From assembly GCA_029238785.1 (NCBI GenBank), contig JAQWFN010000091.1:1-34103 (forward strand): DNA of 34,103 nucleotides, written 5' to 3'. Positions 16,599 through 29,782 of this stretch are shown piece after piece. The DNA comes from Flavobacteriales bacterium (lineage in GTDB: Bacteria > Bacteroidota > Bacteroidia > Flavobacteriales_D > Sanyastnellaceae). A program made the position numbers and the translations under genes. The notes beneath the pieces are model-generated. The model searched no databases. It was not told where the DNA came from and saw only the letters and a program-made list of their open reading frames with translations. Within the stretch, counting starts at the first letter, position 1; each line of letters begins with the position of its first letter.

Positions 16599-19500
16599 AT
16601 GAAAAGAGTCATCATCCTTTTATTTATCTTACTCCTGCAGGCCATTCCGTCTGCTGTAAGTGCACAGTTTTATACTGGCGCGCAACAAGAGTTCGGTAAA
16701 AACAGGGTGCAGTACCGCGATTTCAATTGGTTATACTACCCCTACAAGCAATTTGAAGTCTACTATTACCAAGGCGGAAAAGACCTTGCGATCTATACCG
16801 TTCAAGCTGCCGATCAGCAATTAAGCGAACTTCAGGAGCTTTTCGATTACAAACTCGATGATCAAATCGAGATTGTTGTTTACAACAAAATGAGTGAGTT
16901 TCGTCAGAGCAATGTGGGCATTACCTCAGAAATTGAATCAAATATTGGCGGATCAACGAGGATTGTTGGTTCAAAGGTTTTCTTGTATTTCTCGGGCGAT
17001 TACCAAAGTTATCAGCAACAACTTCGAGCAGCACTTAGTGAAGTTTTAATAAGTCAAATGATGTTTGGCGGAAATTGGCGTCAAGTCATCAAAAATAATG
17101 CTTTGCTTCAATTACCAGATTGGTACATAAAGGGCTTGATTAAATACGCTGAAGGCGAAGAAAGTCCGGAAACAGCAGCTCGTGTTCAAGACGGAGTGCT
17201 CAATGGTGCTTTTGAAAACTTCAACCGTTTGGAAGGAGACGAGGCAGCTTATGCAGGATATGCTTTATGGAAATATGTAGCTGATGTTTATGGCGAAAAT
17301 GTTTTGCCCAACATCCTCTACATGACCAAAATTAGCCGGAACATTGAAAGCGGATTCCTCTTTGTTCTCGGAACCAGTTTGATGAGCCTCAATAGCGACT
17401 TTCTGAATTACTATGATCGCTATTATACATCAAGTGCTTCAGTTAAGCAGTTTCCGGAACTTCTTCCCCTAACTCCATCGCGAAGCAAAGAAAAAAAACA
17501 AAAGAAACAGCTTGGAGAAATCGCGGTAAAGGCTAAAAAAGACCTCGAATACGACCAATTCAAACTCAGTCCAGATCAAGAGTATGTGGCCTATACCACC
17601 AACGAACTCGGTCAGGTGAAGGTTTGGCTCTACCATATTCCAAGTGGAAAGAAGAAGCGCATTTTCAAACACGGATACCCTCTTGAAAGACTGAACGACA
17701 AAAGCTACCCTGTTTTAGCATGGCATCCTTCAAGTCTAATTTTAAGCTTTGTTTACGAAAAACAAGGGCGGGCTTTTATGGTGAATTACAACCTAGAAGA
17801 GCGAAAGAAAATTGAAAAAGAACTTTTCCGTATCGACAAGGTCATTCACATGGCCTATGCTCCAGATGGAAGGAAAATTGTTTTTTCAGGCGTGAAGGAA
17901 GGTCAGTCAGATTTGTACATGTATCAAACCATTGGAAACAATCAGACACAATTGACCAATGATATTTACGACGACCTCCAGCCTCAGTTTATTCGCAATG
18001 GAAACGCCTTGATTTTTGCTTCAAACCGTTTAGACGACACCTTGAGAACTGATGTTTCACAAGCACCATTCCCTTTGAACAAAGACATTTTTATCATGTC
18101 TTTGTCTCCCGAAAACGATGTACTGGAACGCGTCACTTCTACTGCTGATATCGACGAATACTCCCCTTTTGACTATGATGAGGAGCATTATACCTACCTC
18201 GCCTCGAAGGAAGGTTTCTCGAACCGCTATCTTGCCAAAATTGATAGCGCGATTTCAAGAATTGACACCACCATTCACTATCGCTTTTTCACGGTCAGCA
18301 ATCAAATTAGCGACTTACAGAAAAACCCAATTGCCTATGAGTACCACCCCCGCTCGGCTAGTTATTCTTTGGTGTTTTACGAAAATGGTCACCCAACTTT
18401 CTACCTTGAAGAAAAGCAGAGCAAGCCGAGTATTAATGGAAAAGGCGGTGATGGCGAAGGAATGGACAACTCACTTCCTGAGGGCATTGATGTTTTGACA
18501 CTTCCTCCGAGTAAAATCGAAGATGGTCAGATCGACATTGACGACTACGTTTTCGAGGATGACAGCCGAGACTATACCTACGAAAAACAAAGAATCAGTT
18601 TAGGTGATATTGAAACGCCTGCTGCACAAGATACCGTTAAAGCTCAAGCCTTCGAACTGCCTAAACCTAGAAATTACCGACTCAATTTTGCAACAGACTA
18701 CGTCCTTAGTCAGGTAGACAACCGCTTCAACAGCCAGTTCTACCAGAGAAATACCGGTCCTACAGCTACCTTCCCTGGCATATCTGGTTTGGTACAATTG
18801 GGGATATCAGACTTGTTTGAAGATTATAAGATTGTTGGTGGTTTCAGGATTTCGGCCTCGCTCAACAACTCAGATATTGGTTTGAGTTATGAGGATTTAT
18901 CGAAGCGCATTGACCGTCGTTTCACCATTCAACGCCAAGGAAATAGAATGGTTACTGATGATGGTTTTGGGATTACAGAAATGCAGACCTACAGTGCCGA
19001 ATATCAATACAAGTATCCGTTTACAGAGTTGGCCAGCTTGAGGATTTCTGGTACTTACCGCCTCGACCGCTCGGTGGCCTTAGCTACTGATATTTTCACC
19101 CTTGCCCAAGCAAATCAGCTCGATCATAATGTTGGGGTGAAGGTTCAATATGTTTATGACAACACCATCGGTAAAGGACTCAACCTGTATAATGGAACCC
19201 GTTACAAGATTTGGGGAGAGTACCTTCGAGATCCTTTCAACAGAGGCAGAGATGTGAAAGTTGTTGGTTTGGATTTCCGCCATTATGAGAAAATTCACCG
19301 AAGCATGATTTTGGCGCTTCGTTTGGCCGGACACACTTCTTTTGGACACCGAAACATCATTAGCTATCTCGGTGGAGTGGATAATTGGTTATTTCAGCGA
19401 ATAGATAACGAAACACCTATTCCTACTGGAGAAGACTACTTCTTTCAAGCCTTGGGTAGCCCCGTTAGAGGCTTCTTTGTGAATGCGCGGAATGGAAACA

Positions 19501-19856
19501 GTTTTGGTGTTGCCAATGCTGAAGTGCGTTGGCCTATTTTCGATTACTTCTTGAATGCGCCCATCAAGTCAGACTTCGTTCAAAACTTTCAGGTTCTTGG
19601 ATTTGCTGATGTTGGCACGGCTTGGACCGGCAGTAATCCATATGACGAAGAAAATCAATTTAACCAGGTGATTATAGAACAAAATCCCATTACCATCACC
19701 ATAGACAACAACAGGGAACCAATTATTTGGGGTTATGGATTTGGACTACGCTCTCGGGTATTGGGTTATTTTGTAAGGGCCGATTGGGCATGGGGTGTTG
19801 ACGACAATCGCGTGATGCCTCGGGTATTCCACCTTTCTCTGACTACCGACTTCTAG
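16599..19856 (+). CDS. Outer-membrane protein: peptidase-MA-like pseudoenzyme, TolB-like propeller and Omp85-like barrel
   Basis: 1085 residues with a signal peptide (about 1-22, ending VSAQ). Residues about 30-280 look like a gluzincin/peptidase MA-type domain whose motifs have decayed: the HExxH place reads AALSE (144-148), and the downstream 'W..EG.A.Y' block reads WYIKGLIKY (175-183). Residues about 310-600 carry TolB/PD40 propeller repeats such as APDGRKIVFSGVKEGQSDLYM and PQFIRNGNALIFASNR. An acidic linker (about 610-685) leads to a C-terminal barrel (about 690-1085). The barrel has VRGF at 956-959, the lumen-motif of Omp85 proteins, then VANAEVRWPIF, QVLGFADVGTAWTG and a GYGFGLR...VRADWAWG end closing in F. 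I infer an outer-membrane Omp85-type protein with periplasmic propeller instead of POTRA domains. Databases may call such proteins 'TolB-like'. Confidence 0.82.
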   Translation: MKRVIILLFILLLQAIPSAVSAQFYTGAQQEFGKNRVQYRDFNWLYYPYKQFEVYYYQGGKDLAIYTVQAADQQLSELQELFDYKLDDQIEIVVYNKMSEFRQSNVGITSEIESNIGGSTRIVGSKVFLYFSGDYQSYQQQLRAALSEVLISQMMFGGNWRQVIKNNALLQLPDWYIKGLIKYAEGEESPETAARVQDGVLNGAFENFNRLEGDEAAYAGYALWKYVADVYGENVLPNILYMTKISRNIESGFLFVLGTSLMSLNSDFLNYYDRYYTSSASVKQFPELLPLTPSRSKEKKQKKQLGEIAVKAKKDLEYDQFKLSPDQEYVAYTTNELGQVKVWLYHIPSGKKKRIFKHGYPLERLNDKSYPVLAWHPSSLILSFVYEKQGRAFMVNYNLEERKKIEKELFRIDKVIHMAYAPDGRKIVFSGVKEGQSDLYMYQTIGNNQTQLTNDIYDDLQPQFIRNGNALIFASNRLDDTLRTDVSQAPFPLNKDIFIMSLSPENDVLERVTSTADIDEYSPFDYDEEHYTYLASKEGFSNRYLAKIDSAISRIDTTIHYRFFTVSNQISDLQKNPIAYEYHPRSASYSLVFYENGHPTFYLEEKQSKPSINGKGGDGEGMDNSLPEGIDVLTLPPSKIEDGQIDIDDYVFEDDSRDYTYEKQRISLGDIETPAAQDTVKAQAFELPKPRNYRLNFATDYVLSQVDNRFNSQFYQRNTGPTATFPGISGLVQLGISDLFEDYKIVGGFRISASLNNSDIGLSYEDLSKRIDRRFTIQRQGNRMVTDDGFGITEMQTYSAEYQYKYPFTELASLRISGTYRLDRSVALATDIFTLAQANQLDHNVGVKVQYVYDNTIGKGLNLYNGTRYKIWGEYLRDPFNRGRDVKVVGLDFRHYEKIHRSMILALRLAGHTSFGHRNIISYLGGVDNWLFQRIDNETPIPTGEDYFFQALGSPVRGFFVNARNGNSFGVANAEVRWPIFDYFLNAPIKSDFVQNFQVLGFADVGTAWTGSNPYDEENQFNQVIIEQNPITITIDNNREPIIWGYGFGLRSRVLGYFVRADWAWGVDDNRVMPRVFHLSLTTDF

Positions 19857-19886: not shown

Positions 19887-20285
19887 ATGGAAATTGGTAC
19901 AGTAATGATTCTTGTTGCCATCGGTCTTATGGCCGGAATGGTCAGTGGATTTATTGGTATTGGTGGAGGAGTAATTGTGGTTCCAGCTTTGGTATATTTT
20001 CTTGGAATGACCCAGTTTGAAGCTCAAGGAACCAGCCTTGCAATGATGATTCCCCCAATTGGTATTTTGGGTGTGATGAACTATTACAAAGGAGGCCACA
20101 TCAATGTGAATTTTGCCATTGTGATTGCCATTACCTTCGTCATTGGAGGGTATTTAGGTTCAAAACTCGCATTAAAACTGCCTCCTGTTAAGGTGAAATT
20201 TATTTTCGGATTGATCATGTTGTATGTGTCGGTTCGACTTCTTTGGACATCGGGAATCAAACTATTTGCTGGAAATGGATCTTAA
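19887..20285 (+). CDS. Half-size TauE/SafE-family (TSUP) permease
   Basis: 132 residues with about four hydrophobic segments. The N-terminal GLMAGMVSGFIGIGGGVIVVPALVYFLG is the signature repeat of the sulfite exporter TauE/SafE family, and GTSLAMMIPPIGILGVMNYYKGGHI follows it. Usual members have about 250 residues and two such halves; this one has only the first kind, with an intact stop codon and no frameshift remnant after it, so it is probably a natural half-size form working as a dimer. The family moves sulfite, sulfonates or other small anions across the inner membrane; the substrate here is unknown. The gene overlaps the following amidohydrolase gene by 11 bases, suggesting coupled translation. 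Confidence 0.88.
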   Translation: MEIGTVMILVAIGLMAGMVSGFIGIGGGVIVVPALVYFLGMTQFEAQGTSLAMMIPPIGILGVMNYYKGGHINVNFAIVIAITFVIGGYLGSKLALKLPPVKVKFIFGLIMLYVSVRLLWTSGIKLFAGNGS

Positions 20286-21456
20286 AGAACGCGTTAAGCA
20301 ACTCGCCCAAGAACACTTTGCTCAAACAAAGGCTTGGCGGCAACATTTGCATGCTCATCCTGAATTGAGTTTTGAAGAGGAGAAAACAGCGCAGTTTATT
20401 GCTGAACAGCTTGGGTTGATGGGTATACCGTTCAAAGCTGGTATTGCAGGAACAGGCATCGTGGCCTTGATTGAAGGGAATGATCCAAGTTCATCCATGA
20501 CCGCTTTGCGCGCTGATATTGATGCTTTGCCCATCCAAGAGTTGAATGAGGTGGCTTACAAATCTACCGTAGACGGTCGCATGCATGCTTGTGGCCACGA
20601 TGTACACACCTCCAGTTTACTTGGTGCCGCTAAGATTTTGAACGATTTAAAATCTGAAATCAAGGGGAGTATTCGTTTAATTTTTCAACCGGGCGAAGAA
20701 AAATTACCCGGAGGTGCTTCGCTCTTGATCAAAGAAGGTGTACTCAAAAACCCCGTTCCGAAGAAAATTTTAGGTCAGCACGTTTTTCCAGAATTACCTG
20801 CAGGCAAGGTGGGTTTCAAATCGGGGATCTACATGGCGAGTGCTGACGAAATTTACATCACCATAAAAGGAAAAGGAGGGCATGCCGCCATGCCTCATAA
20901 AAATATCGACCCCATTCTAACAGCAGCGCGGGTGATTTGTGGTTTACAAGAACTTGTAAGTAGGAAAAGCAATCCTGCTATGCCTACGGTGCTCAGTTTT
21001 GGAGCGATTAACGGTGGTTTTGCTACTAATGTCACCCCAGAAGAAGTTCAACTGCTTGGAACTTTCAGAACCTTTGATGAAACATGGCGTTTTGAGGCCC
21101 ATGAGTTCATTAAAAACTTTGTTGAAGCCACGTGTGCCGCCGTTGGCGCATCAGCCCTTGTAGACATCCGTGTGGGTTATCCTTGCCTGTATAACCATGA
21201 AGAAACCACTGAGCTAAAGAAAGCACAAGCCATTGAATTCTTGGGTGAGGAGAATGTGATTGATTTGGACATTCGAATGACCGCTGAAGACTTCGCTTAT
21301 TACACCCACGAAGTACCCGGTTGTTTTTACCGACTTGGAACAGCCGCTCCTGATGGAAGCAAATCCGCTCCTGTTCACAATCCACATTTCGACATTGATG
21401 AGCGCGCCTTAGAAACCAGTATTGGTCTTATGGCATGGCTGGCGCTCAAAGCTTAG
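20275..21456 (+). CDS. M20-family amidohydrolase (N-acyl-amino acid / hippurate hydrolase-like)
   Basis: 393 residues from the ATG at 20275, inside the end of the TauE-like gene. The metal and catalytic residues of the M20D subfamily are visible: C106 and H108 in HACGHDVH with H111, E141-E142 in FQPGEE, a His in GQHVFPELPAGKVG, and the final His near VHNPHFDIDE. The dimerisation (lid) domain is about 185-295. It should hydrolyse an N-acyl amino acid or similar amide in the cytoplasm. There is no signal peptide. Coupling to a small TSUP permease suggests uptake or export of the substrate or product, but that is inference. It ends seven bases from the convergent sterol-desaturase-family gene. 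Confidence 0.92.
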   Translation: MDLKERVKQLAQEHFAQTKAWRQHLHAHPELSFEEEKTAQFIAEQLGLMGIPFKAGIAGTGIVALIEGNDPSSSMTALRADIDALPIQELNEVAYKSTVDGRMHACGHDVHTSSLLGAAKILNDLKSEIKGSIRLIFQPGEEKLPGGASLLIKEGVLKNPVPKKILGQHVFPELPAGKVGFKSGIYMASADEIYITIKGKGGHAAMPHKNIDPILTAARVICGLQELVSRKSNPAMPTVLSFGAINGGFATNVTPEEVQLLGTFRTFDETWRFEAHEFIKNFVEATCAAVGASALVDIRVGYPCLYNHEETTELKKAQAIEFLGEENVIDLDIRMTAEDFAYYTHEVPGCFYRLGTAAPDGSKSAPVHNPHFDIDERALETSIGLMAWLALKA

Positions 21457-26564: not shown

Positions 26565-29048
26565 ATGCCAAGGCTTCATTCCATAACCCGTTTTCTCCTT
26601 CTTACGAGCATTTTGCTTGCGGGCTTAAATGCGCTAGGTCAGAAAACCAAGGTAAGTGGTAAGGTAACAGATGCAAGCACTGGAGAAGCGCTTCCTTTTG
26701 TGAACATCCTTTTTGTAGGGACCAAATCCGGCACCATTACCGACCTTGATGGAAATTACAGCATAGAAACCTATTACGCCTCAGACAGCCTAAGAGCCTC
26801 TTTTATTGGTTATAAAAGCCAAGCCTTAAAGGTGAGAAGAGATCAAGAACAGGTGTTGAACTTCAAATTAGAGATGTCTTCAATCCAGCTTGAGGTGGCT
26901 GAAATTAGACCCGACGAGGCAGAAAACCCCGCTTTCGCAATTGTTCGCGGCATTCTGAATAACAAGGACATCAACAACAGAGAAAAACTCGAAGCTTACG
27001 AATACGAAGTGTACAACAAGGTGGAGTTTGACCTCAATAACCTCACGGAAGAATTCATGGAGCGGAAGATTTTCAAACCCTTCCAGTTTGCTTTCGACAA
27101 CCTTGATAGCTCCGAGGAAAAGGTATATCTGCCTATTTTCATGACGGAAAACCTCTCTAACTTCTATTACAGAAAGAATCCAAAAACGAGCAAAGAAGTC
27201 ATCAATGCAGCCCAAGTTTCGGGTATTGAAAATAATTCGGTGAATCAGTTTTTGGGTGATATGTACCAAAACGTTAACATTTACGAGAATAACATTATTG
27301 TTTTTGGAAAGAGCTTTGTTAGTCCGGTTTCCAACTCCGGATTTGCCTTTTACGATTACTACCTTTTAGACAGCACCTTCATCGACAACAAGTGGTGCTA
27401 TCAGATTAAATTTCAGCCAAAAAGAAAACAAGAGCTCACATTTAACGGCGACTTTTGGGTGAACGACACCACTTACGCCATTAAGCAAGTAGACGCGCGC
27501 ATTGCGGATGACGCCAACATTAACTGGATCTATGGTTTACAAGTGAAGCAGAGCTACGACGAAGTTGAAGAAGAAGTTTGGATGCTCACCAAAGACCAAC
27601 TGGTGGTTGATTTTAATGTGGCCGATAAGACCATGGGCTTCTATGGCCGAAAGACCACAACGTATAAGAACTTCGTCATCAACAAACCCAAAAGCGAGGA
27701 GTTTTACAAAGGGATTTCAGACATCATTGTCAGTGATGGCGCTGGAGATAAGGATGATGAATTTTGGGAGAGTCACCGGCACATCAACCTAAGTGAAAAT
27801 GAAAAATCCGTCTATCAATTGGTAGACAGTATTCAGAACATCCCTCAGTTTAGGACCATTGCCGACATCATCACCCTTTTTGTTTCTGGTTATAAACAAG
27901 TGGGCAAGTTTGAAATTGGTCCGTACTACACCTTGTATAGTTTCAACCCAGTTGAGGGCCATCGTTTTCGTTTAGGAGGAAGAACTTCCAATTCGTTTAG
28001 CAAGCGCGTAATGCTTGAGGGTTATACGGCTTACGGCTTACGAGATCAACGATTCAAATATGGAGCAGGTGTTTGGTTGATGCTCTCAAAGCAACCCAGG
28101 ATGCTCCTTCGTTTAGAAGGCAAGAAAGACGTAGAACAATTGGGGGCATCATCTGGTGCATTCAGGGAAGACAATGTTCTGAGTTCGCTTTTTAGACGAA
28201 ACCCTGCCAATAAGCTCACCAATGTTTTGGAAGGTAAAGTTACTTTTGAGCGCGAGTGGTTTTATGGTTTGAGCAATCAAATCATCTTCAATCACCGTGT
28301 ACTTCGCCCATTGGGCGCTTTGAATTACGAGCGTTTTGACGACTCTAATAAAACACTTGTACTTCCCGTAGGAAGGCTCACCACAAGTGAAATCACCTTA
28401 TACACGCGATTTGCTTACAAAGAGAAATACGTTTCGGGAGAATTCGAGCGCGTTAGCTTGGGAACCAAATACCCAACCATAGAATTGGCTTTGAGTAGTG
28501 GATTACAAGGGGTGTTAGGCGCCGATTATGACTACCGAAAAATTGTTTTCCGTGTTCGCGACAAACTGCGCTTTGGTCCGTTTGGTTATGCTAAACTAGG
28601 CGTTGAAGCGGGTAAATTCTTTGGCCAATTGCCTTATCCATTGCTACAACTTCATCAAGGAAATGAAACCTTCTTTTACGATGAAACCGCATTCAACACC
28701 ATGAACTTCTTTGAATTTGTAAGTGATGAGTGGGTGAGCGCTAGCATTTCATATCACTTGGAGGGCCTTGTTTTAAACAAAATACCATTGTTCAGAAAAC
28801 TCAAATGGAGGGAAGTTGTTAGCGCCAAGGGAGTTATTGGCCGATTCGACGAGCGTAATTTGGACGAGCTGCTGCTACCTGAAACCACTTATACTTTCAG
28901 CGGGAATAAGCCGTTTATGGAGGGAGCTATCGGTATCGAAAACATCTTCAAAGTACTTCGAATTGATGGTTTATGGCGTTTGTCTTACCTCGACAATCCA
29001 GACATTGTAAAATTCGGTATTCGTGCCAAACTACAAATCGACTTTTAA
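26565..29048 (+). CDS. Outer-membrane protein with CarboxypepD_reg-like and DUF5686 domains
   Basis: 827 residues. The signal peptide (about 1-25, ending NALGQ) is followed by a carboxypeptidase-regulatory-like beta-sandwich (about 28-110: [20 protein letters not shown], then [13 protein letters not shown]). The remainder matches the DUF5686 pattern: [31 protein letters not shown], a lipoprotein-sorting-like beta sheet, and a long C-terminal barrel with alternating strands ([18 protein letters not shown]) ending in aromatic F (LQIDF), as expected for a BAM substrate. Function is not known. Its stop codon overlaps the lptB start by one base (TAATG), so the barrel protein and the LPS-transport ATPase are co-translated. 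That, and kdsD nearby, suggests a role in LPS or outer-membrane assembly, which is inference. Confidence 0.88.
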
Positions 29049-29782
29049 TGCAGTTACGAGCAGAGAACATAGTTAAGAAATACGGGAAGAGAACGGTGGT
29101 AAAAGGAGTTTCTTACCATGTCAATCGCGGAGAAATTGTGGGATTACTTGGTCCAAACGGCGCCGGTAAAACCACCTCTTTTTACATGACTGTTGGTTTG
29201 GTAACACCCAATGAGGGGCATGTTTTTTTGGATGATCGCGAGATTACGCAGGAACCGATGTACCGCAGGGCTCAACTTGGTTTGGGTTATTTACCTCAGG
29301 AGCCGAGTGTGTTTAGAAAGTTGAGCGTAGAAGAGAACATCTTAGCGGTGCTTCAGATGACCAAATTAAGCAAGAAGGAACAGCGCGAGAAGCTCGAAAC
29401 CCTGATTGATGAGTTCAGCTTGGGTCATGTTCGCAAGAATAAAGGAGATTCCTTGAGTGGTGGTGAACGAAGAAGAACAGAAATTGCTCGTGCCTTGGCC
29501 ACAGACCCCAACTTCATCCTTTTGGACGAACCATTTGCAGGTGTTGACCCAATTGCAGTTGAAGACATTCAAGGCATTGTAGCCCGCTTAAAGGACCGCA
29601 ACATTGGCATCCTCATTACCGACCATAATGTTCAAGAAACCTTGAGCATTACGGACAGGGCCTATTTGCTTTTTGAAGGGAATATTTTGCGTGAAGGCAG
29701 CGCCGAAGAACTTGCTGCCGATGAGCAAGTTCGTCGGGTTTACCTTGGTCAGAACTTTGAATTGCGCAGAAAAACCTTCTGA
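29048..29782 (+). CDS. lptB: LPS export ABC transporter ATP-binding protein LptB
   Basis: 244 residues from the ATG at 29048, overlapping the preceding stop by one base. Walker A is GPNGAGKTT (35-43), the Q-loop is Q84 in [11 protein letters not shown], the signature is [15 protein letters not shown] (136-150), Walker B is [13 protein letters not shown] and the H-loop is H193 in [27 protein letters not shown] and [12 protein letters not shown] are typical of LptB over other ABC ATPases. LptB powers extraction of LPS from the inner membrane by LptF/LptG. Those subunits are not in the window. The gene ends where the convergent ribE gene ends, with no spacing base. Confidence 0.96.

Follow-up and report, generated by a model that had tools for sequence, protein, structure and literature searches.

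Gene and domain architecture

The window analyzed here, a stretch of 34,103 nucleotides, is contig C31 of a 3.1 Mb genome in 132 contigs. An intact open reading frame at 16599-19856 on the forward strand encodes a protein of 1085 residues. The closest named relatives of the window are Flavobacteriales metagenome-assembled genomes, and on the basis of these relatives we take the window's class to be Bacteroidia. From the N to the C terminus, the protein consists of a signal peptide, a gluzincin-like domain, a TolB-like propeller, a low-confidence linker, and an Omp85 barrel. The first-pass annotation of this DNA had proposed the same three-part anatomy behind a signal peptide, and its proposal holds, as do the residues it had placed at AALSE (144-148), VRGF (956-959), and the terminal Phe. 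The features are as follows.

16599-16664, + strand: signal peptide (residues 1-22), signal peptidase I type, cleaved between VSA and QF, without a lipobox; recognized by eye from the sequence
16728-17438, + strand: gluzincin-like (Peptidase MA) pseudopeptidase domain (residues about 44-280); from hhalign against active relatives, PF13485 in an active relative, and AF2 helices
17028-17042, + strand: AALSE (residues 144-148), where active relatives have HELVH; from alignments
17121-17147, + strand: WYIKGLIKY (residues 175-183), at the W-x-N-E-G-L-A-E-Y position in active relatives; from alignments
17505-18413, + strand: TolB-like beta-propeller (residues about 303-605); from NCBIfam TIGR02800, PD40, and AF2 strands
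18414-18668, + strand: low-confidence linker (residues 606-690), pLDDT mostly <50 and the least conserved part (pN)
18531-18563, + strand: short conserved linker motif IDIDDYVFEDD (residues 645-655); family consensus VD[IF]RNYVFSDE
18669-19853, + strand: Omp85-type beta-barrel (residues 691-1085), ending in Phe; from VIA, Foldseek, and PF01103 in a homologue
19464-19475, + strand: VRGF (residues 956-959), in the long loop preceding the last five barrel strands

Profile searches of each segment recovered Peptidase_MA_2, TolB/PD40, and PF01103, partly via relatives. The three-part architecture is kept end to end in dozens of genomes and is therefore not a product of chance; the protein is a conserved Bacteroidota outer-membrane protein in which a propeller and a peptidase-like domain are fused to an Omp85 insertion barrel. 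The alignments behind our structure models were restricted to related loci and hence of limited depth, and the full-length AF2 model (mean pLDDT 58) is too weak for inter-domain geometry.

An Omp85 barrel without POTRA domains

The evidence for an Omp85-like barrel, as had been claimed, comes from fold and from homologues. The predicted barrel aligns to F. johnsoniae BamA (9n2f_A) with a VIA Z of 23.3 (rmsd 4.2, 305 aligned residues), to FhaC with Z 22.8, to CdiB with Z 22.7, and to E. coli TamA with Z 20.4, so that the comparison with BamA and TamA suggested at the outset yields clear matches to both. Foldseek places the predicted barrel on the BamA barrel at E 5e-11, and the structure matches listed for it are all of this one kind (BamA, FhaC, CdiB, TamA). 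Pfam gives no direct PF01103 match in the 1085-residue protein; the homologue at L038 matches this Omp85 family at 6.2e-12. A PDB sequence-profile search with the barrel returned no match. Fold and homologues together place the protein in the Omp85 superfamily, and a barrel-only classification of Omp85 proteins that admits POTRA-less members is already published (PMC4104836). Pfam finds no POTRA domain in the 1085-residue protein.

Strand number is modeled less firmly. The barrel-only AF2 model, of moderate confidence (pLDDT 66, pTM 0.68), has 15 clear strands, its first 43 residues being low-confidence; the full AF2 model has 16 barrel strands only if a three-residue strand at 703-705 is counted. 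These models make a 16-strand barrel likely. The VRGF loop lies where loop 6 sits in Omp85 proteins, with loop pLDDT <50, and R957 and G958 are invariant across 29 barrels.

Propeller and linker

The propeller matches NCBIfam TolB (TIGR02800) at 3.5e-14, with its best stretch at residues 375-478. Its PD40 match in Pfam is weak (0.0018), and the active relative at L126 matches PD40 at 1.7e-16. The first-pass suggestion that the propeller is a docking platform is, on this evidence, speculative.

Within the otherwise variable linker, both dead and active members retain the short motif with consensus VD[IF]RNYVFSDE, 407-460 residues from the C terminus. A loose pattern finds it in 75 of 109 members; a strict pattern finds it in the linker of 59 of 115, against 0 of 232 background windows. 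It also occurs in L036 (in two copies), L037, L055, L074, L083, and others. Possibly it serves as a docking or plug segment. Searched across the protein's own genome, the motif has eight matches, compared with one for a reversed control, and the seven outside the 1085-residue gene look unrelated.

A peptidase-like domain that has lost its active site

Peptidase_MA_2 is sub-threshold in the 1085-residue protein itself (Pfam, E 0.07). The active relative at L126, by contrast with this, matches PF13485 at 2.9e-15 over model positions 4-200 of 201, and hhalign joins five dead to five active N-terminal domains at probability 100 and E 3e-47 over 253 columns, which supports the peptidase ancestry that had been suspected. 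The decay that the first-pass annotation located at AALSE and WYIKGLIKY falls at exactly those positions in the alignments: A144, A145, and E148 align without a gap on the H, E, and H of HELVH, WYIKGLIKY falls on WFEEGLAEY-type sequence of active relatives, and K178 and K182 align on both Glu residues of E-G-L-A-E, each Glu being replaced by Lys. A PDB sequence-profile search with the active peptidase domain returned only chance-level matches (0.25 and 0.43). The AF2 helices of the N-terminal domain have pLDDT mostly of 65-87, falling low at 102-124.

HExxH defines active peptidases of the gluzincin clan. Because both HExxH and the downstream Glu are absent here (AALSE, IKGLIKY), the N-terminal domain is homologous to the Peptidase MA clan but, judged from its sequence, is not an active member of it.

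Conservation is distributed unevenly over this domain. Active rows uniformly (100%) have H, E, H, E, and E at columns 144, 145, 148, 178, and 182, where the commonest residue in dead rows reaches only 27-48%; at W44, N105, P173, W175, G179, and G220 dead and active rows are alike 100% identical. Compared with a same-genus copy, the N-terminal domain has a pN of 0.109 and a pS of 0.767, a synonymous change so saturated that no rate ratio can be drawn; pN is 0.036 in the barrel and 0.245 in the linker. The low pN of the N-terminal domain argues that it is kept under constraint and is not eroding freely.

A single loss within a widespread family

We read family members from the genomes of many family groups sampled across the phylum, and the three-part architecture, whose taxonomic spread had been posed as a question, extends through most of Bacteroidota. 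Among the members of this protein's subfamily read in the window's class, none carries HExxH, and members in other classes have HELVH or a close variant; the member at L096, which the motif scan passed over on account of its extended open reading frame, has HELVH by alignment. In a quick, unrooted tree of 72 rows and 517 columns with the active-site columns removed, all 33 dead rows lie on one side of a single fully supported branch, such that the state changes once, and architecture follows family groups. Where labeled, the dead members all come from the window's class. We read the change as a loss rather than a gain on the ground that HExxH defines active peptidases of the MA clan, the tree itself being unrooted. 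These alignments and the tree argue that a single loss of the peptidase site took place in the common ancestor of the clade that, inside the window's class, includes this protein, and that the decay is an old clade-wide feature and not a peculiarity of the gene at 16599-19856.

Other forms of the protein exist. A second intact form, with GHELVH, occurs both in other classes and, within the window's class, in family f13; a third, with RHE[LM]VH, is found in other classes, and L038 lies near it on the tree. Some genomes carry two forms together. Death of the peptidase is thus a property of one subfamily in the window's class and not of every such protein there. The statement that all peptidase-Omp85 proteins of the window's class are dead is wrong, given the intact paralogue in f13.

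The f13 paralogue, with an intact G-H-E-[LM]-V-H, was seen at L143, L146, L149, and L148, and f13 yielded nothing close to the dead form. Families f15, f16, and f21 of the window's class and f27 of another class gave no match, or short or weak propeller-type matches only. At L038, from about 10820 and directly downstream of the divergent HELTH homologue, lies a gene whose product, a lipoprotein-like repeat protein, reads from its sequence like a BamB/PQQ-type propeller.

Intact relatives often lie near tamB

In other classes, the gene frequently comes straight after rnr and a gene for a protein of 1490-1570 residues; upstream lie heptose genes of the rfaE type or genes resembling those of the shikimate pathway (neighbor names other than rnr and tamB were read from sequence). 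The large neighbor is TamB: at L131 it matches PF04357 at 1e-35, and a profile of seven other such neighbors matches it at 4.9e-150. Scored by PF04357 coordinates, tamB lies within a few kb of the intact-form gene in 17 of the 53 other-class genomes that have both, in 10 family groups, the genomes being related and the counts therefore not independent. These genomes form a first set (G280, G157, G118, G162, G040, G161, G141) and a second (G050, G055, G265, G070, G088, G092, G061, G149, G273, G260); G102 and G115 are two further cases by a TamB-like neighbor below Pfam detection. In most loci read, rnr lies between tamB and the gene, and in G162 the gene order is divergent. In 12 of the 17, no tamB was detected other than the one near this gene. 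G118 carries a pair of tamB genes, of which the first adjoins this gene and the second a different Omp85 protein, a situation that G115 and G102 resemble if the undetected TamB-like neighbor is counted. About two thirds of sampled active-form genomes are without tamB adjacency.

In at least 7 of the 15 genomes searched in the window's class (G140, G060, G051, G227, G072, G203, G136), tamB adjoins an Omp85 protein other than this one, an arrangement published for TamL-TamB (PMC4494059). The gene in the window is not adjacent to tamB, which in its genome is on contig C46. Besides the 1085-residue protein, this genome encodes a BamA-like protein in which POTRA matches four times, two smaller Omp85-type proteins, and a separate POTRA-Omp85 protein that could be TamL.

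Relation to known systems

WD40-Omp85 is one of ten Omp85 subfamilies in the published classification, which noted its TolB similarity and likened it to a BamA-BamB fusion (PMC4104836, Heinz and Lithgow 2014). Like WD40-Omp85, the 1085-residue protein has a TolB-like propeller ahead of an Omp85 barrel and no POTRA domains. However, its architecture spans most of a phylum, whereas the minor subfamilies of that classification are conserved only at the genus level, and the word "peptidase" is absent from the text of that paper (PMC4104836). TamA and TamL, which act with TamB (PMC4494059, PMC12045153), share the Omp85 barrel, and in many genomes the active relatives have tamB nearby; unlike TamA/TamL, the protein described here is without POTRA domains and a lipobox, has a peptidase-like domain and a propeller in addition, and is not in an operon with tamB. 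Its N-terminal domain is homologous to Peptidase_MA_2 (PF13485) gluzincin-like peptidases but in the dead clade has lost HExxH and both downstream Glu residues. PlpD-type patatin-Omp85 proteins likewise fuse an enzyme domain to an Omp85 barrel, with a different enzyme and no propeller.

In the open-access literature we searched, we found no description of a peptidase-propeller-Omp85 protein beyond the WD40-Omp85 class, nor of the dead peptidase, its single inactivation, the phylum-wide spread, or the tamB synteny. WD40-Omp85 is thus already known as a subfamily; the peptidase part, the single loss, the wide spread, and the tamB link are apparently new, as none was found in open-access papers. 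The family provides a natural experiment, in which an outer-membrane assembly-type protein lost its peptidase site once in an ancestor and intact relatives survive for comparison. It further suggests a candidate Omp85 partner for TamB in lineages whose only detected tamB adjoins this gene, which has a bearing on the requirements of TamB at the outer membrane.

A possible role in the envelope

We tentatively favor, at somewhat less than even confidence, an explanation in which this is a POTRA-less Omp85 protein derived from a TamB-linked peptidase that lost catalysis once and kept a binding domain. The gluzincin-derived domain and the TolB-like propeller would sit in the periplasm, replacing POTRA domains. 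Ancestrally, the protein was probably an active zinc peptidase joined to a barrel for insertion or translocation at the outer membrane that served the TamB envelope bridge, and the peptidase might have trimmed or cleared faulty substrates on arrival. In the ancestor of the clade, the catalytic residues would have been lost once with the fold kept under selection, so that the dead domain now most likely binds only, whether a substrate, a partner, or a bridge of the TamB type, and insertion or lipid handling may fall to the barrel and its VRGF loop.

With tamB close to the intact form in 17 of 53 genomes from other classes, our best guess from gene order is a TamA-like role, least secure for the dead form. 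Insertion or movement of lipid or protein is a plausible activity, which the tamB synteny of active relatives supports indirectly. We infer the periplasmic side, the TamB partnership, the transport or insertion activity, and the retention of that partnership by the dead form, which may have changed partners; the synteny could also be inherited gene order without interaction. In a bolder version that we regard as doubtful, Bacteroidota would have a second, POTRA-less TAM, in which TamB docks on the peptidase-propeller Omp85 protein and delivery is coupled to proteolytic quality control; in the window's class, the peptidase would have been switched off and reused for binding, with TamL as the partner encoded beside TamB.

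Surface display in the manner of PlpD seems to us improbable. Here the barrel would export its own N-terminal domains, the active form cleaving external proteins and the dead form binding ligands, and the closeness of the barrel to FhaC and CdiB (Z 22.8 and 22.7), together with known Omp85 fusions carrying a translocated enzyme (PlpD, discussed in PMC4104836), is consistent with this. The domain order and the long linker fit either side of the membrane, however, and the active form often has tamB and heptose genes, not surface enzymes, as its neighbors. We give a similarly low rating to a Bacteroidota-specific BAM accessory, in which the propeller replaces BamB and the protein joins BamA. The TolB-like propeller and the published comparison of WD40-Omp85 to a BamA-BamB fusion (PMC4104836) speak for it, but a word search of two Bacteroidota BAM structure papers (PMC12611786, PMC12578637) turned up no propeller-Omp85 subunit. 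A cell-division or envelope tether acting like TolB with Pal, the barrel being a mere membrane anchor, is very unlikely: TolB is the propeller's best sequence match, but at 52.6 bits it scores far below the equivalog cut-off of 343, and a barrel that is the most constrained part of the protein (pN 0.036), with an invariant RG in its functional loop, exceeds what an anchor needs.

Other genes of the window

The order-level neighborhood of the gene is conserved but uninformative, with a metallo-beta-lactamase-fold gene upstream on the opposite strand and TauE and then M20 genes downstream. The first of these downstream genes, at 19887-20285 and about 30 bp away, encodes a half-length, 132-residue transporter of the TauE/SafE type whose PF01925 match covers the second half alone; it occupies the same place in many order-level relatives and overlaps the M20 peptidase gene at 20224-21456. 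Farther along, 26565-29048 encodes a CarboxypepD_reg and DUF5686 protein, another likely outer-membrane protein, whose gene adjoins an lptB-like ABC gene at 28973-29782 in a local order that is conserved in relatives.
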